The notes under the pieces are model-generated. The model was not told where the DNA came from. It did not search any database and saw nothing but the letters and a program-made list of their open reading frames with translations. 64,000 nt of DNA from Paratrimastix pyriformis (lineage: Eukaryota > Preaxostyla > Paratrimastigidae), in contig JAPMOS010000022.1 of assembly GCA_027972325.1 (NCBI GenBank), positions 1 to 64,000 on the forward strand, given 5' to 3'. The translations under genes were made by a program, and so were the position numbers. Each line of letters starts with the position of its first letter. Positions within the stretch are counted from its first letter, which is position 1. This document shows positions 9,386-49,612 of this stretch, piece by piece.

Positions 9386-10417
9386 TCAAACCAAATCACA
9401 GCAACCCCTTGGCCGCCACACGCACCACAGTCCGCCGAACAATAGTCCGCGGCCCCCATATTGCTGCTGCTTCTCCCTCGCCAGCCGGTCTCGTTCCTCG
9501 GGATCGACCACCAATAACCACGTACCGTCCCAGCGACCAGTCAGGAAGGCTTGTCCCTTCCTGGCAATGGTCGCTGGGCGGATTGGAGGCGTCAGGCTCG
9601 CCAACCAGGCCTCGACAGCCGGCACAGTCGCCAGATCCCGACGGCGCAGCATCGCCAGCTTCTTGTTGGGCGGCACCTCGACCCGCACTTCGGGAGGCAC
9701 CACGGTAATGGGCCATCTCGGGTTGGCATCCCGGCGCGGGAACCACTTCGGCATTTCTTCTCCCTCCGCAAAGAAGCTGACTTGAAAGATCGCAGGCATT
9801 AACTTGAACACCCTCAGAGAATCTACCAAAACCATAACACCCCTTCTCCATAGCACAACACAAACCTTTCCTTCCCAACCAAGTCGCCACATCCTCTTCA
9901 CTGGCCTCCGTCGGAAAGCCAGCAAGCGTCGCCTTGAAGAGCGTTGTCGTGATGATGTCCGGCTGGAATTCAGTCGCCACAGCCACAATAGGCCTCACAG
10001 TAGCATGAAACTTCTGGCCAAGTTCCTCAACCCTTGTGAACTGCTCGGCCGTCGGACGATCGAATAGAATTGAGAATTCGGGGAACGACCCTCCACCGCG
10101 GCGCCCGCAAAGACGCCTGAATTTCAGCATAGGACAGAGGATTCCCATCAGGGAACAAGAGCGTAGCCCCAATAGCCTGCAGCACAAAAGATCGTCAGGA
10201 TCACTCCAAGCCGCCGGCCCCAACTCAGGGCGCTTCGTTTGCGGCACTCAATCAAACAGACCTGATCCCAACATGGGCTCTCCTCATCCTTGCAGGAGCC
10301 GCCGCCTCCGCCGCACTCTTCTCGGCCGCACGCTTGTGTTGTTGCACACGGGCAGCCTCTTGCGCAGCCGCCTCCTTCTCAACATCAGACATAGTCACAG
10401 ATTCAGAATCAGCCATC
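9386..10417 (-). pseudogene. ORF1-like or unknown protein remnant with one putative intron
   Basis: A minus-strand reading starts at ATG 10417 with an acidic/Ala-rich helical N-terminus (MADSESVTMSDVEKEAAAQE). It meets a plausible intron at about 10170-10255, with donor AG|GTCTGT of the same kind as host introns and acceptor TGCAG. After it come 'FPEFSILFDRPTAEQFTRVE', 'FPTEASEEDVATWLGRKG' and, in another frame, 'PPIRPATIARKGQAFLTGRW', ending near 9.39 kb. At least one frame change lies near 9.8-9.9 kb and probably another near 10.07 kb. The family is not recognised. It is either the ORF1 of the minus-strand LINE next door or a decayed host gene. Confidence 0.4.
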
Positions 10418-31474: not shown

Positions 31475-33475
31475 ATGGCCAAACAAGGGGATGGGGAAAA
31501 CTTCCCCATTCTTTGTGAAACATGTCTTGGCCCCAATCCTCTTGTGCGCATGGTTTGTATTCGCAGCGATCTTTGTGACTGGTTCTCATTTCGTATCGGT
31601 GTTTTTTTTAGACCAAGGAACCATACGGGAGGGAATGCAAGGTTGGGGTGACGTTTCCTCTAGGTTTTTATTGATTCCACTGGCGTTCAATCTAGATTTG
31701 CACCCGTCCCTTCACAATTTTCCGCTGGAAGCCCGGCCCACGTGCCCGTTACAAGAAGACCGAAATTTGCCCCACATGCGCGAAGTTGAAGAACGTGTGC
31801 CAAACTTGCATTCTTGACCTCGACCACGGGCTGCCTGTGCAGGTTTGTCCTCTTTCACAATCAATCTCATCTTCCGTTTGATAGGTTCGCGACACTGCGC
31901 TCACCCTCGCCACCGGCAACCAAGACCTGGACATCCCCAAGTCCGATGCGAACCGAGACTTTTTCAACATGGTCATCCAGCAAAAGGTCTGCCGTCCCAT
32001 GTTGCTTCCACCCCAGCTCAGTCCACCATCGGCTTTCTCACTGCAGGCGGAACAGGAGGGCGGCATTGCCGCGGCTGGGCCTCTTCACGGACGGATGCCG
32101 GTGAACGACACCCTCCTGAAGCTGTCCCGCACCACGCCCTACTACAAGCGCAACGAGGCGCACATCTGCTCGTTCTGGGTGAAGGGGTGCTGCAAGCGGG
32201 GCGACGAGTGCCCCTACCGGCACGAGATGCCCGTCACGGGGGACCTGGCCCAGCAGAACATCAAGGACCGCTACCACGGCGTCAACGACCCGGTTGCCAT
32301 CAAGATGCTCAAGCGGGTCCGTGCGCCTGCCCATGCCCATGCCCATGCCCGCTCTCGGCGGGGGTGGCGTCGGTCTCGCCCTCGGCGCGGGTTGCGACCG
32401 GCGCCTCACCACCATGGGTGGGGTTTCCTGTTGTGCTGTGCAGGCTGAGGAGATGCCCGGCCCCCGACTGTCGATCGACCCCAACGTGACCACCCTCTGG
32501 ATCGGGGCCCTCGACAGCTCCATCACCGAACCCGAGCTCAGGTCGGCCCCCCGCCCCGCCGTCTGCCTGCCGGGGGGTAAAGTCCCCCACGGGTGGTCTT
32601 CCTCACCCCGCGCTCTCGTCTCCTCACCGCTGCCCCCCCAGAGAGCAGTTTGCCCCGTACGGGGAGCTTGCCTTCATCAACATGGTCCCCCAGAAGAGCT
32701 GCGCCTTCGCCACCTTCCGCACCCGCCAGGGGGCCGAGGGCGCCCTCGCAGCCCTTTCGGGGACCCTGGCCGTGCGCGGCTTCCGGCTGAAGCTGGGCTG
32801 GGCCCGGGGCGACTCGAGCCTGGCCCCCAAGCCGGCCCCCAGGCAGGCTCCTCCTCCACTTCCCGGCTGTGAGGCCCCCGCCGACTCCGCAACGGCCACC
32901 GCCACCGCCACCGCCACCGCCACCGCAGCCGCAACCGAATCCTCTCCCTCTGCAGCCGCCCCCCCGGCCACAGCCGCTCCCCCTGCAGCCGCTCCCGGCA
33001 CGTCCCCCGCCGCCCCGCCGCCGCCACCACCACCCCCACCGCCCCCCGGGTACTTCATGCCCGGGATGCCGCTGCCCCCGGGGATGCCCGCCCCGCCCCC
33101 CGGCATGCCCGGCTACCCGGGTTACCCGGGGTATGCGTACCCGCAGCCCACGGGCCCCCAGTCGGTGGTGGCGCCCCGGGCCCCGGGCCAGCTGCGCCCC
33201 GAGCAGACCCCCCAGCTGATCACCACCATGCCCGGCCCCGGCCAGCAGCGCCAGCAGCAGCGGGGTGCCTACGTCCTGCAGGGGGCATACTACCCCAGGT
33301 CCGCACCGCCGCTCCGGCCAGTGCGTGTTGGCCACCCCATCCTGGCTCCTGGGGTGGGGGATGGGGGAGGGGACGGGTTGGTTGGTTCGGGGACGCTCAC
33401 TCAGCCCGCCCCTCCTCGACTCCCTCGCGCAGCATGGACCCGGCCTTCCTGGGCAGCCGGAAGGATCTCGAATGA
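31475..33475 (+). CDS. RBM22: RBM22/Cwc2-Slt11-type spliceosomal RNA-binding protein
   Basis: Core splicing factor that contacts U6 snRNA and the intron in the activated spliceosome. Eight exons close in frame to 474 residues: 31475-31552, 31612-31641, 31696-31842, 31885-31986, 32047-32316, 32444-32541, 32642-33298, 33433-33475. The N-terminal Cys-rich fold is seen as '[17 protein letters not shown]', '[20 protein letters not shown]', '[15 protein letters not shown]' and '[13 protein letters not shown]'. Then comes the CCCH finger in '[21 protein letters not shown]' (C-x7-C-x5-C-x3-H), '[14 protein letters not shown]', and an RRM split over exons 6-7 ('[18 protein letters not shown]', '[16 protein letters not shown]'). 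The tail is Pro/Gly/Gln-rich, as in animals. The length (human 420) and every landmark fit RBM22. All seven introns start GTYNG. Confidence 0.95.
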
Positions 33476-33837
33476 GCCCCTTCCCCGGCTCCCCTGTCCC
33501 GTCCCCGGCCCCCCTGTTGCCCCGGCCCCTGCTCTTCCTGCCTGCCGGCCCGTCGCCCTCCCGGCCGCCGCGATTATGTCGCCCCTCCTGCGGCGCCGGG
33601 CCCCTCCCTGCGCCCAGCCCAGATTTGCGGGTTGCTTCTTGTTTCTGTCGCCCTGCGAGGGCGGTGGGGATGGCGGAACGGTCTCCTTCCTTGTTTGGTG
33701 CCCATCCCCCCGGCCGCCCCCATGGCCCAAGCCGAACACGAACACGACAACAACCGGAAACCGGAAACACCAACCCGCTTGGCCGCAGGCAAGTCGGTGG
33801 CGGGGGTTGGGTGGGGTGGGTGAGGGGTGTGGCCTGC
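33476..33837. other. Convergent 3' ends of RBM22 and the enhancer-of-polycomb gene
   Basis: The minus-strand frame entering from the right stays open across this stretch, so the exact end of that gene is uncertain; most of the segment is probably 3' untranslated sequence of both genes. No other feature is seen. Confidence 0.4.
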
Positions 33838-34922
33838 TCACCCGCGGACGGCGATGAGGGGCGGGTGGGGCGAGGCCGACCCGGGAGGAAGGGCCGGTGG
33901 GGTGGGCGAGGGCAAGGGCATGGGCATGGGGGACGGGCTGAGGCCCAACGGCTTGCCGGGCGGGGGGAGGCAGGCGCCCAGGAGAGGGGGGCGGGGGGGG
34001 GAGGCGGGAGGGCGAGCGAGGAGGATGTGGCTGATGCGGAGGATGTGGCTGATGCGGAGATGCTGAACGAGGGGGGCGCCCCCAGGGCCCCCTCGGTGGT
34101 GGTGGTGCTGGGCGGCCGAGCCCATGTGGGGGCCGGGTAGGGCTGGCGGGCAACCGGGCCGGGGTCGTGGGGCGGGTGGAAGTAGCGGAAGTCGACGTGG
34201 AGCTGGCCGACCGGGTCGACCCGCACCCGAGTGGGCCGCAGCCGGGCCAGGTCCACCAGAGGCTGCGGGCCAGCCGGACAGGGCGGCGGGCAGGTCAGGA
34301 GCGGGCACGGGGGCGCGGCGGGGACGGAAACCGGCCGCCCGGCCCATGGGGATGGGGGCGCCGAGGGCGGCAGGGGCGGGGCTGTGAGGGTCTGCAGGAG
34401 GGCCGGCGGCAGGGCAGGCTGCTGGGGCTGGGGCTGGCCCAGCGGGGGCGGGGCGGCCTGCAGCTCGGGGGCCTCGAGAGGCAGGCCGGCCGTGAGGGCC
34501 CCCAGGATGTGGGACTCCTCGCGGGCGATGCGCTCCTCGTCGGCCTCCTCGGCGGCCACCTCGCACTGGTGGCCCCAGTCGTCGTCGTCGTCGTCCGACA
34601 GCGAGGCGCCCACCGCCCGCCGCCTGTCGAAGAAGGGGACCGAATGCAGTGCGCGGAGGTAGGCGAAATGACGAACGAACGATCCGAGAGCACAGAGGGG
34701 TGGGGGTGGTGGGGATGGTGGGGATGGAGGATGGGGATGGGGTGGTTGCCGCCGACCTGACGAGGAGCCGCTGGAGGGTGTGCACCTGGTGGAGCTCCTC
34801 CAGGCACCACTCGGCCCGGGCGGTCGACAGGGCGCTCGCGATCCGCTCGACGGTCACCTCGAGGCGCCGCCGGGCCCGCTCCCGGCGCCGGGCACGCCGG
34901 GCGGCGTGACGCTGGTGGTGGC

Positions 34923-34953
<31 letters not shown>

Positions 34954-35856
34954 GGGCTCGGGGGCCTCCTCGGAGGAGCTGCCGAGGGCGTCGGGCAGGT
35001 CCGGGTCCTCGGGATGCCCCGGGCTGAGCAGGGCCAGGTCCTCCTCGAAGAGCACCTCGGCCGGGTTCTGCATGAGGGCCCCCAGGTCCTCCTCGCTGCT
35101 GGGGGCCTCGTCCAGCGAGTCGGCAGCCTCGGTCGGGACGGGGCTCGCAGGGGCCGCCGGCGCCACCGCGGCCGGGTGGGCAACCACCGGGGGCCCCGCG
35201 GCAGCTGCGGCCGGGTGGCGGTGGCGGCCGGACGGACGGGGAGGGGCCGCGGACGGGTTGGCCTGAGGGCGGCAGTGGCGGGACGGCGGAGAGGGGACCG
35301 CATGATGGGTGAGGCTTGGGGGTCTCGGGCCGGGCGGGGATCTCCATCACAAGCGCTGCCCATCTTCCCGAGCGGGGGAGGAGGGCGGGCGTGGACGGCG
35401 TGGCAGACCGCTGCCGGCTCGGGCTGGGTGGGCTTCCGGTGGTGGCGCTTCTCCAGGGCGGGCCGCACCGGGACGGCGTCGGCCGTGGGGGCGGCCGGGC
35501 GGTGGGGTGGCCGGGATGGGGGCCGGCGAGGGCGTCGGCCGGGCGGCGTGGCGCTCGCTGTGGATGGGCATGATCAGGGGGGTCTGGCTCAGGGGGCGAG
35601 CTGGTCGGGGGTCGACCCGGGCCGGGCCCGCCGTTTCTTGCGGTCTTCGGGGGGCGCCGCGAAGGGGTCCGGGGCGGTCGGGTCGAGCTGGGCCTCGAAG
35701 AGGTGTGCCCGCAGGCGGATGGTCTGGGCCTTGAGCTCCTCGCGCTCCTTCACCCGGGCCAGCAGCTCCCGCACGGCGCCCAGCTCGTGGTGCAGCTGGT
35801 GCAGTTTGTCCACCGAGAGCAGGTCGCCTTGCCGCGTCTGCAGATCCACGCGGGAT

Positions 35857-35901
<45 letters not shown>

Positions 35902-37087
35902 ACGCGCAAGGGCAAGAGACGAGGGGAGCGGTGAGTCGTGTGGGCGAGAAACGGAAGGTTGGACAGGCGGATGGGGCGGGCATGCGGGACGGACGCGGCG
36001 GTAGAGGTTGCGCTGGTTCTGCCGGGCCCGGAAGCAGAGCGTCATGTCCTTGTTATCGGGCGGGGCGGTTTCTGTGGGGCAGGGCAGAGGTCAGGGTCAG
36101 GTCAAGGCAGCCCGGTGGGGAAGGTCGGCGGCAGGGTGGCGGCTTCATGGGTGGTGCCGTGCCCACATGTGGGTGCCTGCATGCGGGGTGCCTTGGGGCG
36201 GACCTGGAAGCGGCGGAGGAGGGCGCCCTTCCGCCGCTCGCGCTTGGCCTTCCAGTAGTTGTACACGTCGGCCCGAAACTCGACCGGGAAGATCTCGAAG
36301 AGGGCGTTAGCCTCGCTCTCGTCGCACACGATGGGCTGATGGGAAGGGCGGGGGAGAGAGATGATGATTGAGTGAGCCGAGGCTCGTTCCCATCACCACC
36401 AAAACCTTCACCTTGGGGGGCGGACGGCGGGAGAAAGGGAGAGAGTGGGGAGGAAGGAGGGCAGACCGAGTCGGCGGTTGTCTTCTCGAGGCGGTCGATC
36501 ATCAGCTCGATGATCATGACCCCGTGTAGTTGTTCTGCTCCAGGAAGGGGGATCACCGACGGGTGGGCCGCGCAGTAACCCTCGATGAAGGCGAAGTCCT
36601 CATCGTCCATGTCGTACTCGATCTTCTCCTCGATCTCCCGGCTGCTCTTGCCTGCCCGCCCACGCCCGACCCCCCGGGGAAGAGAGGTGTCAGGAAACAC
36701 CTCGTGCAGGAGGGCGAGCGGGAGACGGGGCAGACCGGTATACCTGATGTAGGAGCTCGGTTGCTTCCACCGGGTGTGGAGAGGCACCAGCTGGGCATCA
36801 GGGAGGATGTTAAAAACGGGGGTGGGGATGGCCGCCGCCTTTCGTTGTTGGCGGGCTTGGAGTGCCAGTTTCACGTGCCGTTCCTGGGGAGGCGGTACTG
36901 CGGGAGCGAAAACCAAAAAATCGCGGACCTCCTCTTCTTCTGGTTCCATACCAGTCGGACATTGCGGACCACTCGTAACCAGCTCAAGTTCAAGGTCCTG
37001 CTCGTCAAATTCCTTGGGGTCTTTGACGATTATCATCTTTTTCGAATGGCTGATGGGCCTTTGTCGAAAGTAATTCCTTGTCGACAT
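33838..37087 (-). CDS. Enhancer of polycomb (EPC/EPL1) homologue
   Basis: Chromatin protein that scaffolds the NuA4/TIP60 histone acetyltransferase. Start ATG is at 37087 ('MSTRNYFRQRPISHSKKM', a basic N-terminus like that of EPL1). EPcA landmarks follow: 'GPQCPTGMEPEEEEVRDF', 'IPTPVFNILPDAQLVPLH', 'IEYDMDDEDFAFIEG', 'MIDRLEKTTADSV', 'ANALFEIFPVEFRADVYNYW', 'CFRARQNQRNLYRR', and a helix 'LLSVDKLHQLHHELGAV' ending near 35.6 kb. A TGA is reached at 35589-35591, but the same frame resumes downstream. A 63-nt intron starting GTCGAC would carry it on into Ala/Pro-rich exons with acidic blocks ('LSDDDDDDWGHQCEVA') and 'RVRVDPVGQLHVDFRYFHP'. I therefore treat 33.84-35.5 kb as the C-terminal half. 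Its last exon and stop are unresolved, and it could instead be a separate gene. Identity is firm for 35.6-37.1 kb. Confidence 0.85.
35860..35900. repeat. G41 homopolymer in an intron of the enhancer-of-polycomb gene
   Basis: Run of 41 G on the plus strand, upstream of the exon starting TRQGDLLSVDK. Confidence 0.9.
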
Positions 37088-37418
37088 CTTTGATTCCTGA
37101 AAAGGAAAAGTTCGAACTCGCTTTGGATCAACATCCAGACCCGCCGGCGCCGGGCGGGGCAGAAAAAAAAGAGTGCCGAACGAGCCCGGGGATCGCTCGC
37201 GCGATGCCGGAGTGGACCAAAAAGGCGCGTCGGCTGGTTTACCCTTGTAATTTTTCAATGGATGACAAGGTCTTGGCACATCCCATCATCCCGCAAAAAG
37301 AATCCAGAAACCCAGGTGGTGTAGAAAATGGCGCCGCTATACCGCGGCAATAATAAAAAACGGGAACGACAGAACGCTCGAATAAGGAGAATATTCACAG
37401 TCCCAAAAACATCTCGGA
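37088..37418. other. Intergenic between kinesin stop and enhancer-of-polycomb start
   Basis: 331 bp of mixed composition containing the 3' end of the kinesin transcript and the upstream region of the enhancer-of-polycomb gene. The minus-strand frame reads through upstream of ATG 37087, but its sequence is unlike the family, so the start was put at 37087. No motif is recognised. Confidence 0.5.
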
Positions 37419-40400
37419 CTAGGTCTTCTTCTTTTGACCGCCGGCGGGCTTGGCGGCGGGTTTTGCGGGCGGGCGCCCGGGGGTGCGGGTTGGCGATCCT
37501 GCATCCGGCGGCTCGGGCGTCCCCGATGGAGGCGGGCGGTCAGCAGGCGATCCGGCTGGCTGGGCGGCGGCGGGAGCCGGCGAACCCGCAGGAAGCACCA
37601 GGTCCACCTCGGCCCCGGGGATACCCGCTAGTGGACGACGCGAATGGGATGAACCCGACGCCGATCGGACGAGCCGAGCAGACCGGGGCCATCGAGGCCG
37701 TCGTCGTGCTGGACCGGGGCAGCCGTGGCCGCTGCCGCAGAGGCGTCCTGGGGTGGCGGCTCGCGCTCGTCGGTGATCTCCTCCATCCCCGAGTTGGGAA
37801 TCCCTGGTGGTGTGTACGGGGGGGTAGTGGCGCGAGGTGAGGAGGTGAGATCGCCATGGTGGCCGCGGGTGGGGCGGCGGACCGGCGCGCAGGTCGGTGA
37901 TGATCTTGTTGAGGCGCTTCACCTCGGGCGTGTCGATGAGCTGCCGCACGTTGTTGGTGATCTCCTTCACACGGGAGGCGTACCTGCGGCCGGGGGTCGG
38001 GGGGTGCGGCGGGAGGGTTGAGGGGGGCTTGGCCGGGGCAGGGGGCTTGGAGGGGGGTGGCGGGAGGGAGTGGGAGGGGCCGCGGACAGGAGGGCCTGGA
38101 TGGTCTCGCCTGCCTCGCGCTTGGCCGGGCTGATGCAGACGAACATCAGCGTCTTGGCGTTGCCCCCTACACCGCCGCCCCCGCGGATGGGCGGACGGCA
38201 GGTGAGCCGGTGCGCCAGCGTTGGGCTTGCGGGGGTCGGGGGATGGGGGATGGGGCAGGGCCGTCAGCGGACCGAGGGAGTCGCTGAGGAGCTGGGTCAG
38301 CTTGTGCTCGCGGTAGGGGATGTGGGCCTCGCTCTTGGAGAGGGCCTTGATGACGTTGCCCAGGGCCGACAGGGACTTGTTGATGGCGATCAGTTCCTGC
38401 ACGTGCAGCACCCAGGGGGTGTGGAGGCGTGAGCGGCCCGGCCAGCCAGGCGGGAAGCGAGGAGGAGAGGAGGATCAGAGATGGCTGCGCGGGGGGCAAG
38501 CGGACATCGAGGCCCTTGCCCTGCACGCCCGAGCGGCTGGCCCGCTCCGAGCCGGCCAGATCGACCAGGGTGATCTGCGGGCGCCACCGCGCAAGACAGA
38601 TCCCACCGACGGTCAGCAGCCAGTTGACCAGGCGAGGCAGCAGCATGGCGGGGGTGGCGCGCGGAGATGAATGGGGGGAGGGGCGGCGGTGGGGCGGGCC
38701 TTGCCGGTGTAGTCCTTGTTGGTGGACATGTTGTGGCCCTTGATGATGATCGAGAAGACCAGATGCGACCGGCTGCTCATCTCGTTCATCACTGCGCCAC
38801 CCCCCCAGCCCCACATCAACACCATGAACGTCATGAACATCGTCAACACCAACACCAATTGAGGAGAGCAGAGGGAAGGGAGAGGGGGGAGACAGACGGG
38901 TCTTGGCGGTGTGGCGGTGGTCGAACCCCGACCAGAAGGCGGCCTTGCACTCGTCGGGCGTGTGGACGGGCACCTCCGTCACGAAGGGCGTCAGCACAAT
39001 CAGGCCCTGCCAGCAGCCAGCACACCCCCCGGGGGATGAAGCAACGGCTCGGCCCCCGGCCCAGGCCGAACCACCCCCTCTGCAAGATGGGAGGTGCTTG
39101 GTCGCGACCTTGGGGTTCATCTTGACGCCGAGGTTGCCGGGGTCCTGGCCGCGCCCGTAGCCGACGACCAGGCAGTCGCGCAGGTCGTCCAGGTAGAGCT
39201 CGAGCATGTAGCAGCTCAGCTGGCGGCCCCCCCGCCACCGACCAGGACCAGGACCAGGACCATGACCAGGACCAGGACCATGACGGCCGCATCCAACATC
39301 CAACGTGAGGCCATGGAGAGGGCGCAGAGGGCAGGGTGGCATGGGTGGCATGGGTGAGTGGCATGGGTGGCAGGGGGGGCGGACCTCGAAGGCGAATGTG
39401 TTGGCCCTGCGGCAGGCCTCGACCGTGTCGAAGAGCGTGTCGATGGCCCGCAGGGTGATGCCGGGCGCCTTGTTGGGGTCGTCCCCGGGGCCGGTCATGG
39501 TGAAGCTGCAGCACCGCCCGAGCCAGCCACCCGCCCCCGCCCACACGCCCAGCCGTGGTCGCCGCCCAGGAAGCAGCAGCAGAAGCGGAACCTCAGCGGA
39601 AAGCCCGGTGCCAGAGCGGGGCAGGTTGGGGAGGGTAGAGGGTAGAGGGTGGAGGGTGGAGGACGGGGGCGGACGTCTTGCCCGAGCCCGTCTGGCCGTA
39701 GGCGAAGATACACACGTTGTACCCGTCGAGCGCGCTTTGCACGAGCCGCTGCGGAGGGTGGGGCGGCATCGAGTGCACAAAAGACCGTGAAGGATGGGTC
39801 GACATAGACATAGACATAGACATAGACATAGACATAGACATAGACATAGACATAGACATAGACATAGACATAGACATAGACATAGACATAGACATAGACA
39901 TAGACATAGACATAGACATAGACATAGACATAGACATAGACATAGACATAGACATGGTTTGGGCGGGGCGGGGCGGGGCGGGGCGGGGCGGGGGTGGGGG
40001 GGGGGGTCGACCTTGGTGTCTGCGAAGACGTCCTCCTGGGGGGTGCCCGGGGGAAGACCGAGTCGAAGAGGAACTTCTTCTCGCCAATCGACTCGGGGGC
40101 TGCGGGGGCGATGCGGGGTGGGGTGGCCCATATGAGGTGGATTGTGGTGACCCAGATGCGGGATGTGGGAGACAAGGCCCCAACGAGCCGAGTAGGGGCG
40201 GGTGGCACGGGCGGACCCTGGAGCTTGATGGTGAAGGCGTCGTCGAGGGTGATGCATCCCGGGTCGGCGATCTCCCGCTCGCGGCCGTTCATGGGCCGCA
40301 CCCGGCAGAAGACCCGGATCTTGCCCTTCATGTCTGCCAGCCCCCCCCCCCCCCCCCCCAGCCAGCCGCCCGTCACCACGCGATGAGCCGCGGGAGGGCC

Positions 40401-40798
40401 AGCGGACATCACCCCAACCCGGGTCCGCCATGTTCCCCTCGGATGAGAACCCTTCACTCCCTCCCTCCCTCCCACAGGGCACCCGGGCTGGGCATGGGGG
40501 CGGACCCTCGAGCTGGTTGTTGAGCTCCTTGCGGCGGAGCTGCTCGGTCTTGAAGTTGAACTGGATCTGGGCCAGGGCCCGCTCGAGGTCCTCCCGGGCC
40601 TTGGTCAGGTCGGCCAGCTGCTTGCTCAGGTCGGCAAGCTGCCCCTCCAGCCGCTGCGCAGCCCCAACACCAACACCGCATCCAGCCGCCACCGCCGCAG
40701 AAGCAACATCGACCATCGCGGTGAGCAGCGGATGGGGACGCCTGCGTCTGCTGGCACGACCCCGTGGCCTCCCCCGAGTCATCAGGCGGAGCAGGCAT

Positions 40799-40833
<35 letters not shown>

Positions 40834-40979
40834 AGCCAGGCTGCCTGGGGACGGGCCTGCTTGGTGGTGAGGGCCTCGGCGCCGGTCTTCTCGAGGTCGG
40901 CCACCCGCTGGGTGAGCGCCTCCTTGTCGGCCGTCAGCTGGGCCTGGTCCTTCTCCAGCGTCTGCACGCCCGTCGTGAG

Positions 40980-41052
<73 letters not shown>

Positions 41053-44000
41053 GCACCAGGGGCACCGAGGGACGACGCCAGGCGGCGGGGACGGGTCGGG
41101 TCGGGGCGGGGCGGACCTCCTTGGCTGCGCGGAGGAGCTTGACCTCGGGCAGCAGGAGCCCCACGACCTGCTTGACGCGCTGGTACTCGGCCTCCTGCTC
41201 GGCCGCCTTGGCCTGGAACTCGGCAGCCTGCGCCCCCGCCACCACCCCGGTACCGACCGTTAAGCCCAGGGCAGGCCGAGCGAGGTCGGTGCCTTCGGGC
41301 GGGCGGGCGGGTGACCTGCTTGGCGAGATCCTCCGTGAGCTGGCTGATCTTCTCGGCGTTCTGCTGGCCCGTGGCGGCGCCCTCCACCCGGGCCGCCTCC
41401 AGCTGCTGCTCCAGGGCGGCCGCGTTCCGCTTGGCCTTCTCAAGATCCTGCTCCCCCCCGACCCCAACGCCCCCCGGCCCGCAGCCGCCTCACGTGAAGG
41501 TCTCCCCCGGAAGGCAGCTCGGCGGGTCGTGGGGGAGGGCCGGGACTGGGGATCGGGTGGGTGGAGCGGGGGGCGGACCTGGGAGCGGGCGGTGACCTCC
41601 TCGACGAGGCGGGTGTGCGCCTCGCGGGCCTTGAGGAGGATGGCCTCCTGGTCGGCCCGCTCCCGGGTCAGCGCCTCGATCCGCCCCTGGGCCTCGGCCT
41701 GGGCGGCCCGCATCTGCTCGCCCGAGCTCGCGCTGCCCCGCAGGCGCACCGAGACCACGCCGCCCCACACAACCCCCGAGGCCGACGCACAGGCAGGACC
41801 GTCAGCGCACCGCACCGGAGGAGCGGCCAGCAGGAGCGGGGGGCGAGGGGGCGAGGGCAGGGCAAGGGCAGGTGCGGGTGCGGGTGCAGGGGCGGGGGCG
41901 GGGCGTGCGGACTTGAGGGTTGCGATCTGGGCTGTGGCCGCCTCGAGCTGCTGCTTGGCGGCCTCGAGGTCCCGCGTGCGACGCTCCCGCAGGGCCGTCT
42001 CCTCGCCCAGCTGCACGAAGAGGCCCGTCCCCGGCACCCCCGGCACACACCCCGTCCCATGCCCGTGCGTCGTCGCTTGCATGAGTCCCAACGGCCCGTG
42101 GAACGTGGCCTCACGCCGATGGAGCGGGGGAGGGCAGAGGGAGACGGGAGGCGGGAGGCGGGGCGGGGGACCTGCTTGGTGAGCATGTCGATCTTGGTCT
42201 GCAGGGCGGCCTGCTGGGCCTCGGCGGCGGAGGCCTTCTGCTCGGCGGCCTCCCGGGCCTTCTGGGCCCGCTGCAGGCCCGTGTCGGCCTGCTTGCCCTG
42301 GGCGGTGGCCTCGCGCAGCTGGGTCTGGGCCTCGCGGGTCTGCTCCTCGGCCCGCCGCTGGCGCTCCTCGGCCTGGCGGGCCCGCTCCTCGGCCTGCCGG
42401 ATGCGGTCGCGCTCCTTGTCGGTGGTCGCCGCTTGCACCTGCCAAACGGCAAACGGCCGCGACCCAACGGGTGAGGCCGGAACGACGCCCACCTGCCCGA
42501 GGCGCCTGCTGGCTCATTGCTGTCCGGCCCCTTTGGGAGGTGGCGGCAGCGGCGGTGGGCGGTGGCAGGGGCGGACCTGGGCGCCGCCGAGGTCCTGCTT
42601 GAGGCGATCCGCCTGGGCCTGCAGGTCGGCCAGCTGGGACTGGGCCCGCTGCAGCTCGTCCGCCTTGGCCTGCGCCTCGGCCGTCTTGGTGCGCAGGGCG
42701 GCCTCGCGCCCCTGCAGCTCCAGCGCCTGGTCGGCCCCCCGTGTGATGGTCACGGCATGCCCAACCCGTCCACATGCGAGCGCGTCAGGGAAGGATCGCC
42801 AGCAGGGTGGGCAATGGGACGAGGGGAATGGGTCGAAGGGCGGGAGGGGGGGTTGGGGGCTGGGGGGCTGGGACGGACGGCCGCCTGTGCCTGTGCCTGT
42901 GCCTCCTGGGTGGCCCCCAGCTGCCGCTCGAGGTCGTCCTCCTTGCGGGCCAGGGCCTCCTTCAGCTCCCCAACCGCCGCGCGCGCCTCTGCTCCCGATG
43001 GGGCCCCCCCGCCATTCACCCAGAAAAGAACATCGTCACGGTCGTCGTGCCCCAGGGGGGAGGGGGCGAGTGGGTGAGGGGGTGAGGGGCGAGGGGCGAG
43101 GGGAGGCAAGGGGAGGGGAATGAGGGGATGCGCGTCAGGGGTGGGCGAGAGGGCAGGCGGCACGGCAGGCGGACCCTCGAGCTCCTCGCTGCTGGCCCCG
43201 CCAACGACGGCCCCGCCGCCCCCAGAGGCCTGCCTCCCACAGCGCAGCCACGGCGAAGAGGAGCAAGAGCAGCAGGCGGTGAGATGACGGTCAAGCAGAG
43301 GAGGAGGAGGAGGAAGAGGAAGAGGAAGAGGAAGAGGAGGAGGAGGGCCGACCTTGGCCTCGCGGAGGTTCTTCTCGGCCTCCTCGAGCTGTGCCCACGG
43401 GGCGGAGGAGGAGGGGCGGCAGGGTGCCCGGTGAGCCAACAGCAATCTCAGAAGCGGGTCAAATGAGCCAGCTCCCGCCCCCGTCCGGTCCGAAAAGGGG
43501 AGGGGGAGGCAGGGAGGGGGAGGCGGGGAGGCGGGGAGGCGGGGAGCGGGAGCGGGAGCGGGAGCGGGAGCGGGAGCAGGAGCGGGGGGGGGGGGGGGGG
43601 GGGGTGGCGGGCCTGCTTGGCGAGCATGGTCCGGTCGACGGCCGCGTGCTGCAGCTCGAGGGTGGCGGCCGTGTGGGCGGCCCCGAGGGCCTCGTGCTCC
43701 CGCTCCAGGGCCGCCAGCCGCTCCTGCAATGCCTCGGGTCCCGCCGGGGGCGCAGGCCGGACCGCCTCGCGCAGCTGGGCCTCCAGGCCGGCAACCCGCC
43801 GGTCCGTCTGCACGGCGGCACACGAGCCGACCGAGGGGGGAGAGAACCCAAGGCGGTCAGGCCCAAGGAGACGCCACGAGTATGCCTGGGTGGCCGTGGA
43901 TCCGGGCGGTGGGTGGACGGGCCTCCTTGCGCTCGGCCCGGAGGGCCTCGACATGGGCGCGGAGGGTCTCCACCTTGGCCACGACCCGCTGGGGCACCAC

Positions 44001-45669
44001 CACCACGTTCTCGGCCAGGGCGGCGTCCTTGGCGGCGAGCAGGTTGATCGCCTCGGCCGGGCGGACCTCCAGATCTGCGCAGGGCCCACCCAGCCAGGCG
44101 TCGGAGTCATCGGGGGGCACGAGCGGGCGCAAGGGAGGGAAAAGCATCATCACGACGGGGCGGGGCCGCGGCGGGGGGGGGGGGGGGGGGGGGGGTGCGG
44201 ACCCCGCCTGAGGTGCTTGGTGTCCTCCTCGAGGCGGCTGATGGTTTCGGCGCTCCGGGCGGCCTCGGCGGCGGCCTGGTCGGCGGCGCTCTTCAGGCGC
44301 TGTCGAGGGCCATCCGATTCGGGCGGGAGGAAGGAGTGAGCCATCATCGGACGCGGGGAGGCCATCCTCCCCCCAGAGCCCCCTGGCGGGCGGCCCCCCG
44401 ATGGGCGACCACGGACCTGAGTCTGCAGGGTGAGGGCGTCGCGCTCCTCCCTGAGGAGGGTGGCCTCCTTGGCGGCCGCGGCCCGCTGCTGCTCGGCGGC
44501 CGCCAGCCGGTCGGCGGCCTCGCGGGCGGTGCGGGTGACCTCCTCCTGCTTGGCGATCAGGTCGCCCTGCAGCTTGGCAAGCTCCTGGGCGGGCGTCAGC
44601 TCCTCGGCCTCCACAGCTGCCGCCATCACCGCCCGCCCCAAGTCGCGTGAGGACGCAGGACGGGGCGGGACGGGACGCAGGGTGTGTGTGTGCGGGGCGG
44701 CAGGCGGACCGGCAGTCTCGGCCTCCGACTGGCCCAGGGAGGCCAGCTCGGTCTTGCCGGCTGCGATCTCGTCGCTGAGCTTCTGGTAGCTGCGCCGGGG
44801 GGGAGGCGGCCACAAGCCGGGCAGAGTGAGCGCGCGCAGGCGAGGGGGACAGGGCATGTGGGCATGTGGGGCATGTGGGCATGTGGGCGGGCGGGGCGGA
44901 CAGCTCGTACTTGTCGCGGATGGTGGCCTTGTCGGCCTTCTCGGCCTTGCGGCCGTTCTGCTGCTCGAAGACGTCCAGCCAGGCCTGGATCTCCCGCTTG
45001 ACCCGGTTCTTGGCCGTCACGGCGGCCTTCAAGTCCAGGGTCAGCTGCAGCAGCCGGTCCTGGCGCTCCTTCCGCTTCCGCTCGCGCTCCTCGGCCTCGG
45101 CCTTCTCGGCCTGCTTCTGAGGCGCCCAACCCACGCAGTGAGCGCCCCCGCCCCCCCAAGAGTGTTGAGCCGACCCGAAGCCGAATCCGGGCCCCCCACC
45201 ACCGCCCATCAGCCCAGCCAGGCGCATCATCGCAAGGCGAGGGGCGGCGGGCCTTGATGGCGTCGACGAGCTCCGCCCGGGCCTTGTCGCACTCGGCCAT
45301 CAGTTCGGCCTCCCGCTTGGCGTAGCGCTCCTGCCACTGGGCCGCCGTCCCCGACGCACTGTCCCCCCCGCCCCACCCCCCCAAAGATCCCCACGATGAT
45401 GTCCGGGTGCCACAGGACAGGGGGGCGCCAGGGCGTGAGGCAAGCGGCCGCACGGACGCCTCATCGGCGGCCACCAGGGCGGCGCTCTTGAGGGCGAGCG
45501 CCTCCTGCAGCTGGGTCGCCTCGGCCGCCGCGGCCTGCTGGGCCCGGGCAGCGTCGGCCTCGGCCTTGGCCAGCCGGTCGGCAGCCTCCTTCAGCTGGCC
45601 CTCCAGCTCTGATGAGGTGCCGGGGGCGGGGTCGATGGAGTGCCCAATGGAATGCATGCCGCCCTGCAC

Positions 45670-45702
<33 letters not shown>

Positions 45703-48021
45703 GGAGTCATGGGAGGGGCAGGCGGACCGTTGATGCGTGTGCGGGCCTGCTCGGTCTGGGCGTTGGCCTCGGCGAGGAGGGCCGGGTCGACGCCGCCCAT
45801 GAGCATGGCGGCCGTCTCGACCTCGAGGCGCCCCGGGGGCAGAGCCGCCAGCCGGTCGGGCTCCTCGACCCCCATGATGGGCGGCGGGCTGGCCAGGTCG
45901 GCGGCCTCGGCCGATTCCTCCGCCCCCGCCGCCCCACTCGCCCCGACTGCTGCGGCGGTCCCGGTCGCGGCTGCGGCTGCGGCGGGGAGGCCAGTCGGTG
46001 GGGCGCCCTCGGCGGGAGCAGCCGGGGCGGCGGAGGGCTTGCGGAGGGCGCCGGCGCTGACCAGGGCGGCCACCTGCTGCCGCATCCGATCCGTCGCGGC
46101 CGCCGCGGCCGACAGCTGCAGCTTGAGCCGGGCCACGTCGTTCAGCTGGAGGGGCGGGGCGGGGCGAACGGGCGGGGAGGCGAGGAGGCGGGGCCCATGA
46201 AGGCTGTGGTGGTGGGCAGGTGTGCGCGCGAGATGGGGCCGGGGAGGACCGGGAGGCTGGGGGGGCAGACGGCGATCTTCTTCTCGTCGGCCTCCTTGGC
46301 CAGGCGGGCCACGTGCTGTTCGGAGGTCCGCAGCTGGCCCGCCATGGCCGTGCCCACCAGCTGGTGGAAGGAAATCGCCAGCTGCGCGCGCCGACCCCCC
46401 CGGCCAAACCCACGCCGCAGCGAGCCGAGTCGGGGCCCCGCGGGAGGAGACAGGAAAAGTTGTCGCGAGGTTGGCCACGGATGGCACGGGGACGCACGAC
46501 GGGCAGGCGGGGGCGGGGGCGGGGGCGGGGGCGGGGGCGGGGCGGGGGACCTTGGTCTCCTCTCTGAGGACCCCAGCTGGTGGAGGATGTCGTGGTGCAT
46601 GGCTGCGTGGTAGTCCCGCTCCTCCTCCTGTCCGCCCGGTCAGCCCCCGCAAGCAGCACGGGCCCCCGGATGGTGAGGGAAGGCGGGCAGGCGACGAGGC
46701 GGGCCAGGCGGTGGGCGGCGAGGGCCGACGGACGGCGCTTTCCAGGGCGGCGCGGGTCTTGTCGAGCTCCTCCTGGACGGGCACTGCGCAGCCCCACCCG
46801 CAGCCACCCCATCCCCCCATTGAGATCGCCGCCCAGAGAGGCGATGGCCAGGGCGGGCAGAGTGCAGGGCGGCGGGGGGGACCGATGTCGCACTCGTCGA
46901 TGGTGGCCTGGACCTCGTCGCCCATGATGGTGGCCATGGCCAGGGCCTCCTCGTCCCGCAGCACCATCGCCGCGTGGGCCAGCGCCAGGATGCCCTCGTT
47001 GCGCTGGGTAAGCTCCTCTGCGCGGGCCCCCGTGCGGACGGGATGGTGAGCGGAGGGGGACGAGGGGACGAGAGGGGCGAGGGGACGAGAGGGACGAGGG
47101 GACGAGGGGGCGAGGGGGCCAGCGGACGCTCGAGGTCGTCCAAGGCCCGGGCGTGCTCTTCGGCGGCCTGGTTGCGCTCCCTGACGGCGGCCGCGGAGAT
47201 CTTGGTCATGGTCTCGTTCAGCGCCGCCACGTCGTGCTCCTGGGAGGGTCAGAATGGACGTGACCCGGGGGAATGACAGCAAGGCAAGGCCGTGCGGGGG
47301 CGGGGCGGGCGGGGCGGGGCGGGGCGGGGCGGGACCTTGTCCTTCTGGAGGCGCTCCACCTCGGCGATGTGGTCGCGCTCCATCTGCTCGCGGGCCTGCT
47401 GCATCTCCTTGATCTGCTTCTCGAACCGCTGCATGCGCACGGGGCCAGGCGAGGAGGCAAAAATGAAAAAGGCTTTCCAGGCCGCCGAGGACGAGGGGGG
47501 GGGGGGGGGGTCATGGACGCCAACCTCCTTATCGGCCTTTGCCTGAGCCTTGACGGCTGCTACTTCCTGTTTGAGGGCGTCAATCTGTGCCTTATCCTTG
47601 GCGGCCCTGTCGGTGGCTGGGTCCCCCAAATGAAAGTGGAAAGGTTGGACGACGGCAAGGCAGGCCTTTCCTCTTGAGCTTTGCGATAAAATCGGTATAA
47701 AATTCCTGGAAAGGGGCTCGAGGAAAGGGATTGAGTTTTGGAGCAAACCGTGGTCTCGTCCTCGATTTTCCGGTAGTTCTTCTCGATATCGGCCACAATT
47801 TGAACGTATTCCGATTTCATCTGATGGAAATCACGGATGATCTGGACACGCGACAGAGGATTCCAAAGAGTTAACATTGCAAGGCGGACCTCTTGGATCT
47901 TCCCCCGGGCAAGGGAAAGCGGAATGAAAGCCTCTTCCCGAACATTGGGCCTTGCCTGTGCGACTTTCTGCTCGAGCTTGTTGGAGTCCTCTAACAATTT
48001 CTGAATATCTTCGGCCTTCAT
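37419..48021 (-). CDS. Kinesin-14 with C-terminal motor and very long N-terminal coiled coil
   Basis: Minus-end-type microtubule motor. The start ATG 48021 gives '[20 protein letters not shown]', followed by about 20 exons (40.5-48.0 kb) of Ala/Glu/Lys/Gln-rich coiled coil, for example '[20 protein letters not shown]' and '[20 protein letters not shown]'. The neck 'ELNNQLE' then '[20 protein letters not shown]' is diagnostic of kinesin-14. Motor motifs are [11 protein letters not shown] (P-loop, 39.7 kb), NEMSSRSH (switch I, 38.78 kb), [12 protein letters not shown] (switch II, 38.55 kb), '[16 protein letters not shown]' and '[15 protein letters not shown]'. A short Pro/Ala/Lys tail ends in GGQKKKT and TAG at 37419-37421; a GTCTGC intron restores its frame near 37.63-37.68 kb. 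The single-gene model rests on continuous coiled coil on one strand. Two adjacent genes cannot be fully excluded. Introns carry ATAGAC, TG and poly-G repeats. Confidence 0.9.
39806..39953. repeat. (ATAGAC)n hexamer array in a kinesin-14 intron
   Basis: About 25 near-perfect units, followed at once by a GGCGG/GGGGC array (39960-40005). Confidence 0.95.
40799..40832. repeat. G34 homopolymer in a kinesin-14 intron
   Basis: Run of 34 G between coiled-coil exons. Other intronic runs in this gene are C19 at 40341-40359, G21 at 43584-43604, G23 at 44173-44195, G30 at 45672-45701 and G16 at 47495-47510. Confidence 0.9.
40982..41051. repeat. (TG)n microsatellite in a kinesin-14 intron
   Basis: About 34 TG units between coiled-coil exons. 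Confidence 0.95.
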
Positions 48022-48142
48022 ACTCCGGATGACGAATCAAGAGAATGAGGGACGAGAGAGAAGGAAAGAAAAGCGAGCCGAAATAACTGGCGGATAGAGA
48101 AGAACACCCGGGGTTATTAGAGTCATTCAAAAAGTCAAGTGG
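48022..48142. promoter_or_regulatory. Short divergent (bidirectional) promoter region
   Basis: 121 bp, AT-rich compared with the flanking gene bodies, between the kinesin-14 start (minus) and the DNAJC9-type start (plus). It must contain both promoters. No TATA box or known motif is identified. Confidence 0.55.
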
Positions 48143-49612
48143 ATGTCCGATTATTACTCGATTCTGGGCATTCCCCGCGATGCCAGTTCCTCTGATATCC
48201 GAAAAGCTTATTATCTAAAGGCAAAGGATTGCCACCCCGACAAGAATCCGGGCGACGAAAACGCAAAGGCTCGATTTCAACAGTTGGGCCGTATTTATGC
48301 TGTTTTGAGCGATCAAGAGTCGCGTGCTTTTTATGATCGCTTTGGGGAGGTTCGGATTTTTACGCCCGTAACAGTCTTATGGCGTTCTGGTAGAAAGTCG
48401 AGAATCCGCTTGACGACATGTCCCCCCAGGACCAGCTGGAAATTATTCTGAAGCGGTACGCGGAAGAGTCTCGTTTTTCTGTTGAAGGTCCGACACGTTT
48501 CAATTCTGGCGCCATCTCCTCCTTGCCTCGGACAGATATCGATTCGCATCTCCAGTCGGATGAGGCCAAACAGGTTTGTCTTGGCTCTTCGGCGGTGCCT
48601 TGACTTTTTCATCTTGTTTTCCTCAGCAAGAGCAGGAGGATTTGAAAAAATATTATCTCAAGTTCCGGGGCAACATGAAGAAGTCTGGCGCCATCACCCC
48701 CCCCTGTGGCATCTGACCATACCTGGTGGCGGCAGAGCCATCCAGTGCATCGCCGGCTGCGAGACCGAGGACCTGGGCCGCCTGTGCGCCCAGATCGACG
48801 CGTGGATCGAGGCGGGCGTGGTGGCCGCGCTGCCCGAGTATGCCCGCACCCGCCCCAAGGCCGGCGGCCCCAAGGCCCGCAGCCCCGCCAGCCGCAAGAA
48901 GGAGGCCGCCGAGGCGGCTCAGCTGATGGCGCTGCTGCAGGCCAAGCGGGCCGCTCGGGGTGGCGGCTTCGCGGGGGTCATCGCCGCCGCGGCCAAGCAT
49001 ACCGGCCCCGAGGAGGCCGGCATGATGGAGAAGGAAGTGCCCGGGGAGTCCCGAGCCAGCGAGGAGGAGGAGGAGGAGGACGAGGAGGAGGTCTGTCGCC
49101 ATCTCTCGGCCCCGTCTTTGGGAAAGGCAACGGTTCGAGGGCGCACTTCTTTGGGGCCTCGTTTCTGGTCGGGCTGGCCTCTGGGGCGATGGGCGGCGGG
49201 GCGGCTTCCAGCTGGGCGCCGAGCGGATCGACCTCAGCGAGGGCGAGGAGGACGAGGAAGAGGAGGAGGCGGAGAAGCGGCCTAAGGCAGCACGCCGGGG
49301 CCGGGCCACCGCCCGGCGGGGCAGTCGGGCCGCCCGGCGGTGCAGCAAGGAGAAGAGCAAGGCCACCACCGCCTCGTCGCCCCCTCCCTGCCCCACCGAG
49401 TCGGGCCGCGCCACCCCCGCCAAGCGCTCCCGCCCTCCCAAGGTCAGCCGCCTCGTCGCCCCCTCCCTCCCCCCTCCCTCCCTCCCTCCGATCTCCCCCG
49501 GCGACGAATGCATCATCGCCCGTCCTTCCCCGCCCCGCAGGAGGTCAGCACCCCCGCCGCCACGGAGCAGCCGGATCCGTTGCTGGCGCGCCTCTCGCCG
49601 CCGCCTTCGTGA
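48143..49612 (+). CDS. DNAJC9: DNAJC9-type J-domain histone chaperone
   Basis: J-domain co-chaperone that in animals binds H3-H4 histones and recruits HSP70. Six exons close in frame to 366 residues: 48143-48349, 48394-48573, 48627-48682, 48736-49090, 49212-49442, 49541-49612. The J domain (residues about 1-68) opens 'MSDYYSILGIPRDASSSDIR', has the essential HPD in 'CHPDKNPGDENAK' and ends 'SRAFYDRFGE'. The DNAJC9-specific middle follows: 'QEDLKKYYLKFRGNMKK', 'AIQCIAGCETEDLGRLCAQI' and 'AGVVAALPEYARTRPK', matching the human order. The tail carries long Glu/Asp and Arg/Lys-rich blocks, plausible for histone contact. Length exceeds human (260) because of that tail. Composition jumps from about even to very GC-rich near 48.69 kb. 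Confidence 0.92.

Follow-up and report, generated by a model that had tools for sequence, protein, structure and literature searches.

Introns of Paratrimastix pyriformis (Preaxostyla, Metamonada) begin with GTYNG instead of the usual GTRAG, and all eight U1 small nuclear RNA (snRNA) genes that we found in its genome carry a 5' end changed at the two positions that face +3 and +4 of the donor. Donors were analysed in a stretch of 64,000 nucleotides (positions 1 to 64,000 of contig JAPMOS010000022.1, assembly GCA_027972325.1; hereafter the window), and the genome searched comprised 56.06 Mb in 495 contigs, the window being part of contig C135. An EMAP-like protein predicted on contig C24 matches a P. 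pyriformis protein record at 100% identity. We estimate at nearly nine in ten the probability that the major spliceosome of P. pyriformis has a recoded 5' splice-site reader, and that U1 and donors have co-evolved. The U1 5' end is treated as constant because a change in it alters the recognition of most introns at once. The published P. pyriformis genome (56.6 Mb, 633 scaffolds, 60.94% GC) was annotated using a retrained Augustus, RNA-seq intron hints, and PASA (PMC10703272); the parts of that paper covered here do not discuss splice-site sequence.

Donor sequences

Donors were considered verified when placed by protein conservation, by an open frame, or by published protein models. The verified set contains 33 donors (7 from RBM22, 5 from a DNAJC9-type gene, 6 from Prp8, 2 from SNRNP27, and 13 from the published models P0121 and P0122), and in 33/33, position +3 is C or T and position +5 is G. 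Twelve of them lie on the plus strand of the window, where an initial annotation, made from the sequence before any searches, had quoted the donor hexamers of RBM22 and the DNAJC9-type gene; all were located (7/7 and 5/5), each with a pyrimidine at +3 and G at +5. The RBM22 introns occupy positions 31553..31611 (donor GTTTGT), 31642..31695 (GTTGGG), 31843..31884 (GTTTGT), 31987..32046 (GTCTGC), 32317..32443 (GTCCGT), 32542..32641 (GTCGGC), and 33299..33432 (GTCCGC). The first six are backed by the conserved spliced protein, whose residues 1-310 have 2233 homologues (E ≤ 0.001, best E 3.6e-115), while the seventh, in a low-complexity tail, is based on the open frame. In the DNAJC9-type gene, a single open frame leads from the ATG at 48143 through all five junctions to the stop at 49612, with introns at 48350..48393 (GTTCGG), 48574..48626 (GTTTGT), 48683..48735 (GTCTGG), 49091..49211 (GTCTGT), and 49443..49540 (GTCAGC).

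The Prp8 junctions were placed by a 793-residue alignment to a solved Prp8, gap-free at the junctions (an entry named hPrp8 scores equally). In P0121 and P0122, which come from the project whose annotation drew on RNA-seq intron hints (PMC10703272), a pyrimidine was present at +3 in 13/13 donors, seven of which were obtained by script and six, around micro-exons for which the one-intron script gave no solution, were read from the DNA. Each of the seven scripted junctions had exactly one GT-AG solution although GT-AG was not imposed, and U2-type GT-AG boundaries were also present at the Prp8 and RBM22 junctions. Base counts were made on a subset of 26 donors (the verified set minus the DNAJC9-type gene and SNRNP27), and were C21 T5 at +3, T15 C8 G2 A1 at +4, G26 at +5, T13 C11 G2 at +6, and G18 T5 C2 A1 at −1. 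Against the background of GT dinucleotides internal to predicted introns (n = 1747; next base C 0.413, T 0.183, G 0.373, A 0.031), a pyrimidine at +3 in all 26 has a binomial P of 2e-6. Seesaw coupling between −1 and +5 was tested in the donors and was not significant.

Larger sets were obtained with a gene finder on which just GT and AG were imposed; RBM22 and Prp8 served as seeds for its coding model, which was then self-trained. When the dinucleotides at both intron ends were left free, GT-AG was not recovered (GT 31 and AG 21 among 215 filtered introns); the coding model by itself is unable to locate intron ends, and GT and AG therefore had to be required. Unfiltered, 354 introns had C276 G43 T23 A12 at +3. 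After filtering by flank coding score and length, 190 introns had C175 T3 G10 A2 at +3 (a pyrimidine in 178/190), C133 T34 G17 A6 at +4, and G155 C21 A7 T7 at +5 (G in 82%). These models have errors: although RBM22 and Prp8 were the seeds, RBM22 junctions are wrong or missing and the first Prp8 junction is wrong, the first junction of an EMAP-like gene is dubious, and kinesin junctions are misplaced. A third set, of 277 filtered introns, was produced using learned site weights, which have the bias built in, and had C262 T7 G7 A1 at +3 and G in 237 at +5; in the window alone, this model gave 112 donors, with a pyrimidine at +3 in 108 and G at +5 in 93. C far outnumbers T at donor position +3.

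The U1 5' end and its predicted pairing with donors

The Rfam U1 model matched eight loci over its full length (1-166), at 50.8-60.2 bits (E 2e-10 to 4e-13); the match includes stem-loop I, an Sm-like site, and the 3' stem. In 8/8 loci, the 5' end reads AUACAGACCU in place of the usual AUACUUACCU, i.e., U is replaced by A at position 5 and by G at position 6. Positions 3-9 are ACAGACC in every locus, in place of ACUUACC, which is a conserved U1 sequence but does not define a U1. A longer 5' read is AUACAGACCUUGCUUGG in all eight, compared with AUACUUACCUGG in the Rfam consensus, and position 11 is U where canonical U1 has G. The register of pairing with the donor is the same as that of canonical U1, which reads GURAG donors. 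Human and yeast U1 have pseudouridines at positions 5 and 6; in P. pyriformis, both uridines are gone. The first 50 bases are identical in the eight copies, which exist in five versions across 157 bases. A genome-wide search with the U1 pattern left free at positions 5-6 found the same eight places and none else, while the canonical 5' end followed by GATCA 10-24 bases on had no match genome-wide. Before any U1 sequence was seen, the initial annotation had predicted from the donors a purine at U1 position 6, and G is what the eight loci of the same genome carry; it had foreseen neither the change at position 5 nor the identity of U1 nucleotides 1-7 with the U6 ACAGA-box sequence.

A CCCATAA box is located 59-60 bases upstream of 8/8 U1 loci and likewise of the 3/3 U2 loci examined; because the spacing is equal for U1 and U2, it supports the predicted U1 start. 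The same box is found 66-67 bases upstream of 4/4 U6 loci, and 53-54 bases upstream of the 4/4 U5 loci examined. The four U6 loci have an additional TTATAAG or TTATCAG box closer to the start. We infer that the predicted U1 genes are expressed, and that they pair with donors in vivo as drawn here.

The U6 snRNA, found at four loci (96.7 bits), has the canonical ACGAUACAGAGAAG, including ACAGAGA. AUACAGA is common to U1 nucleotides 1-7 and the U6 ACAGA box, whereas no more than 5 bases are common to the canonical U1 end (12 bases) and P. pyriformis U6, at another U6 site. The U2 sequence GUAGUA was present in the three loci read, and the U5 loop CUUUUAC in the four loci read. U12-type donors have the consensus RTATCCTT, which was found in 0/33 verified donors; a U12-like locus (G000:C432:103343-103517) scored 44.9 bits, under the cut-off of 53, and a minor spliceosome is possible.

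Duplex energies between the U1 5' end and donors were calculated with ViennaRNA for all 16 dinucleotides at U1 positions 5-6. For the 26 donors, the real U1 had a mean energy of −8.36 kcal/mol, compared with −3.21 kcal/mol (rank 15/16) for UU at positions 5-6 and −9.83 kcal/mol for GG, the best dinucleotide. For the 190 and 277 gene-finder donors, AG ranked second (−6.44 and −6.79 kcal/mol), GG first (−10.32 and −10.46 kcal/mol), and UU last. The real U1 also paired with donors better than with intron-internal GT sites (up to 600 sampled), at −6.79 versus −4.36 kcal/mol; with UU at positions 5-6, the gap was small (−2.91 versus −2.46 kcal/mol). The U1 5' end is thus complementary to its own donors in the 26, 190, and 277 donor sets alike. 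GG outpairs AG since many donors have C at +4, with which A5 does not pair. U1 is fitted to a pyrimidine at +3 and U at +4, and not to the C at +4 of GC-rich genes.

Weighing the explanations

Several observations weigh against recoding of U1. All U1 matches score under the Rfam gathering score of 69.5. The +3 pyrimidine, which the initial annotation had called invariant, is near-invariant: it holds throughout the verified set, but 12/190 filtered introns have a purine. One of these has an in-frame GTCCGC 3 bases downstream; the others, that is, most, could be neither confirmed nor dismissed. G at +5, also presented as a fixed feature of donors, is broken in two donors of the kinesin motor on the minus strand, GTCGAC at 40006..40011 (C at +3, A at +5) and GTCGCG at 39103..39108 (C at both +3 and +5), at junctions backed by alignment; these two were the only kinesin junctions inspected by hand, and were picked for their odd look. 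GG at U1 positions 5-6 would beat AG on present donors in all three sets. U1C was not found in the genome, which makes the composition of the U1 ribonucleoprotein uncertain, though an intron-split U1C could be missed.

The failure to find U1C would also suit an explanation in which the +3 pyrimidine is read mainly by U6, the G after ACA facing C or U at +3, together with proteins, U1 being minor or dispensable and having changed passively. U6 ACAG is complementary to YUGU, and Cyanidioschyzon merolae and Entamoeba are reported to splice without U1. We nevertheless regard this explanation as improbable: if U1 were decaying, specific changes at precisely the two positions that face +3 and +4 would not be expected, and the eight loci keep one 5' sequence over 50 bases along with the promoter box and its spacing. 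Still less credit can be given to the proposal that the eight loci are a variant U1 serving a subset of introns, and that a canonical U1 (AUACUUACC) is absent from the assembly. The BUSCO completeness of the published genome is 76.3% (PMC10703272), and the diplonemid S. specki is reported to have a second U1, a C-stretch form with an altered 5' end, beside the canonical one (PMC12621601). However, the canonical pattern was present at 0 places, the covariance search gave these eight loci only (41/992 first-look candidates scored), and few gene-finder introns and none of the verified donors (0/33) have a purine at +3. We consider this the least probable explanation of all.

Composition alone, with GC-rich introns drifting to C at +3 and U1 uninvolved, is already disfavoured, and we hold it to be very improbable, though a little less so than a variant U1 family. 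When wrong donors (GC, GA, CT, and TG) were forced on the gene finder, C was present at +3 in 96/161, 69/139, 76/151, and 68/120 (50-60%), and G at +5 in 35/161, 26/139, 35/151, and 26/120 (19-23%). The C-rich intron state of the model thus raises C at +3 to 50-60%, not to 92%; intron composition explains part of the excess of C at +3, but neither the 92% nor the 82% of G at +5. In the 277-intron set, T at +4 was found in 11/27 introns with local GC below 62%, 38/104 at 62-70%, and 13/146 above 70%, and +6 tracks local GC as +4 does. C at +3, in contrast, was present in 25/27, 97/104, and 140/146 of the same classes, and in the lowest class +4 was divided into 14 C and 11 T. Position +5 stays G. 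Position +3 is constrained, and +4 weakly so. Moreover, the matching positions changed in 8/8 U1 copies.

If U1 has been recoded, its 5' end would have changed from the usual sequence to the present one in every U1 copy found, and donors would have shifted from GURAG to GUYNG, mostly GUC[C/U]G[C/U]. U1 C8, A7, and C4 would pair with G+1, U+2, and G+5 as in the usual helix, G6 with C+3 (Watson-Crick) or U+3 (wobble), and A5 with U+4 where that base occurs. The donor would be handed on to U6 presenting the same AUACAGA, one donor sequence serving both recognition and hand-over. As a likely order of events, an ancestor may have had GUAUG donors such as those of the oxymonad Streblomastix; the U-to-A change at position 5, fitting U+4, would have been gained next, and the U-to-G change at position 6 together with the +3 pyrimidine; rising GC would last have fixed C+3 and pushed +4 and +6 towards C at small cost.

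A stronger proposal is that the two substitutions, by making U1 nucleotides 1-7 equal to U6 AUACAGA, created a single template, i.e., one code for both readers. We give this somewhat less than an even chance. If it is true, the conflict over +3 and +4, where U1 favours a purine and A while unmodified U6 favours U at +4, vanishes; +4 is freed from its link to METTL16 and SNRNP27K, which both seem to be present; and A5 of U1 comes to lie within UACAGA, the sequence around the methylated site of U6. On this reasoning, Entamoeba, which has GUUUGU donors and is reported to lack U1, may simply have a recoded one. A METTL16-like gene matches PF05971 at 64.5 bits, with an exon that reads FDFCMCNPPFF, and the SNRNP27 gene (34.7 bits; the source of two verified donors) contains RQYMNRKG, which we take to hold the residue called M141. 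A at +4 is rare, at 1/26, 6/190, and 5/277 donors (2-4%). In Saccharomycotina, the presence of METTL16 accompanies A at +4 (PMC10581693), and P. pyriformis looks like an exception to the METTL16/SNRNP27K-+4A association reported in fungi.

A study of 227 Saccharomycotina and 9 outgroups (236 species) reported the U1 sequence ACUUACC as invariant, and raised a change of U1 position 5 to A as no more than a possibility (PMC10581693). Giardia U1 retains ACUUAC (PMC3510501), and nucleomorph U1s retain the ACUUAC(C) motif. GUAUGU-type donors of yeast, Giardia, and oxymonads (in Streblomastix, of the same phylum, A, U, and G at +3 to +5; PMC1501061) resemble those of P. pyriformis in that U+4 suits the U6 ACAGA box, but keep A at +3. 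Entamoeba histolytica donors (GUUUGU; PMC6018208) have the +3 pyrimidine and U+4 found in P. pyriformis, yet U1 snRNA is reported absent there, whereas P. pyriformis has eight U1 genes matching its donors. In Fritillaria, 95% of introns are outside GT/AG, and the two U1 versions of F. borealis do not differ at their 5' ends, adaptation being ascribed to U2AF and m6A (PMC13326754). Splice sites are strongly altered in Fritillaria and diplonemids as in P. pyriformis, and all raise the question of whether U1 adapts; unlike in Fritillaria and S. specki, every U1 copy found in P. pyriformis is changed. Engineered compensatory U1 suppressors follow the same logic, a 5'-end change restoring pairing to altered donors (PMC11732430), but are laboratory constructs for single sites, and P. 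pyriformis would be their natural, genome-wide counterpart, in which the U1 copies found and the donors moved together. Within the covered portions of the openly licensed literature, we found no report of wholesale natural U1 recoding, nor, for Preaxostyla, of a U1 with AUACAGACC or of donors with a +3 pyrimidine. P. pyriformis indicates that the U1-donor code is rewritable, and provides a way to test how the donor is shared between U1 and U6. It also warns that, in lineages of this kind, a U1 search that expects ACUUACC or a gene finder that expects GTRAG can fail.

Other features of the window and genome

A kinesin-14-like gene occupies 37419..47434 of the minus strand, with 38 predicted introns that mostly have GTCCGC or GTCCGT donors; this is a machine model containing errors. 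A search for a published protein model of the kinesin gave no match at E ≤ 1e-200. In the motor exon that precedes the GTCGAC donor (40020-40060, minus strand), there is an apparent 1-base frame break beside a C run, which may be a homopolymer assembly error. A long array of the six-base unit acatag lies at 39800-39955, between kinesin exons, and long plus-strand G runs at 35859-35900, 40800-40833, and 45674-45701 lie within or close to introns of genes on the minus strand. GTCCGCC, said to follow dozens of minus-strand exon ends, begins 26/103 predicted minus-strand donors in the window, and the GTCAGT donor quoted for TmcB copy 1 was not recovered by the gene-finder models.

By eye, GC seems much lower in the 5' parts of RBM22 (31475-32050), the kinesin gene (47500-48020), and the DNAJC9-type gene (48143-48660) than in the remainder of these genes, and donors within these 5' parts are richer in T. 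Elsewhere in the genome, the sole zf-U1 match (L051, 1477-2040) was rejected as U1C because it reads as a WBP4/FBP21-like protein; it has two likely GTCCGT donors. Another stretch, L036, has N at 2514/10,000 bases. A weak match to the mir-200 model at 9524-9583 of the window (35.6 bits versus a gathering score of 86) is most likely due to chance.

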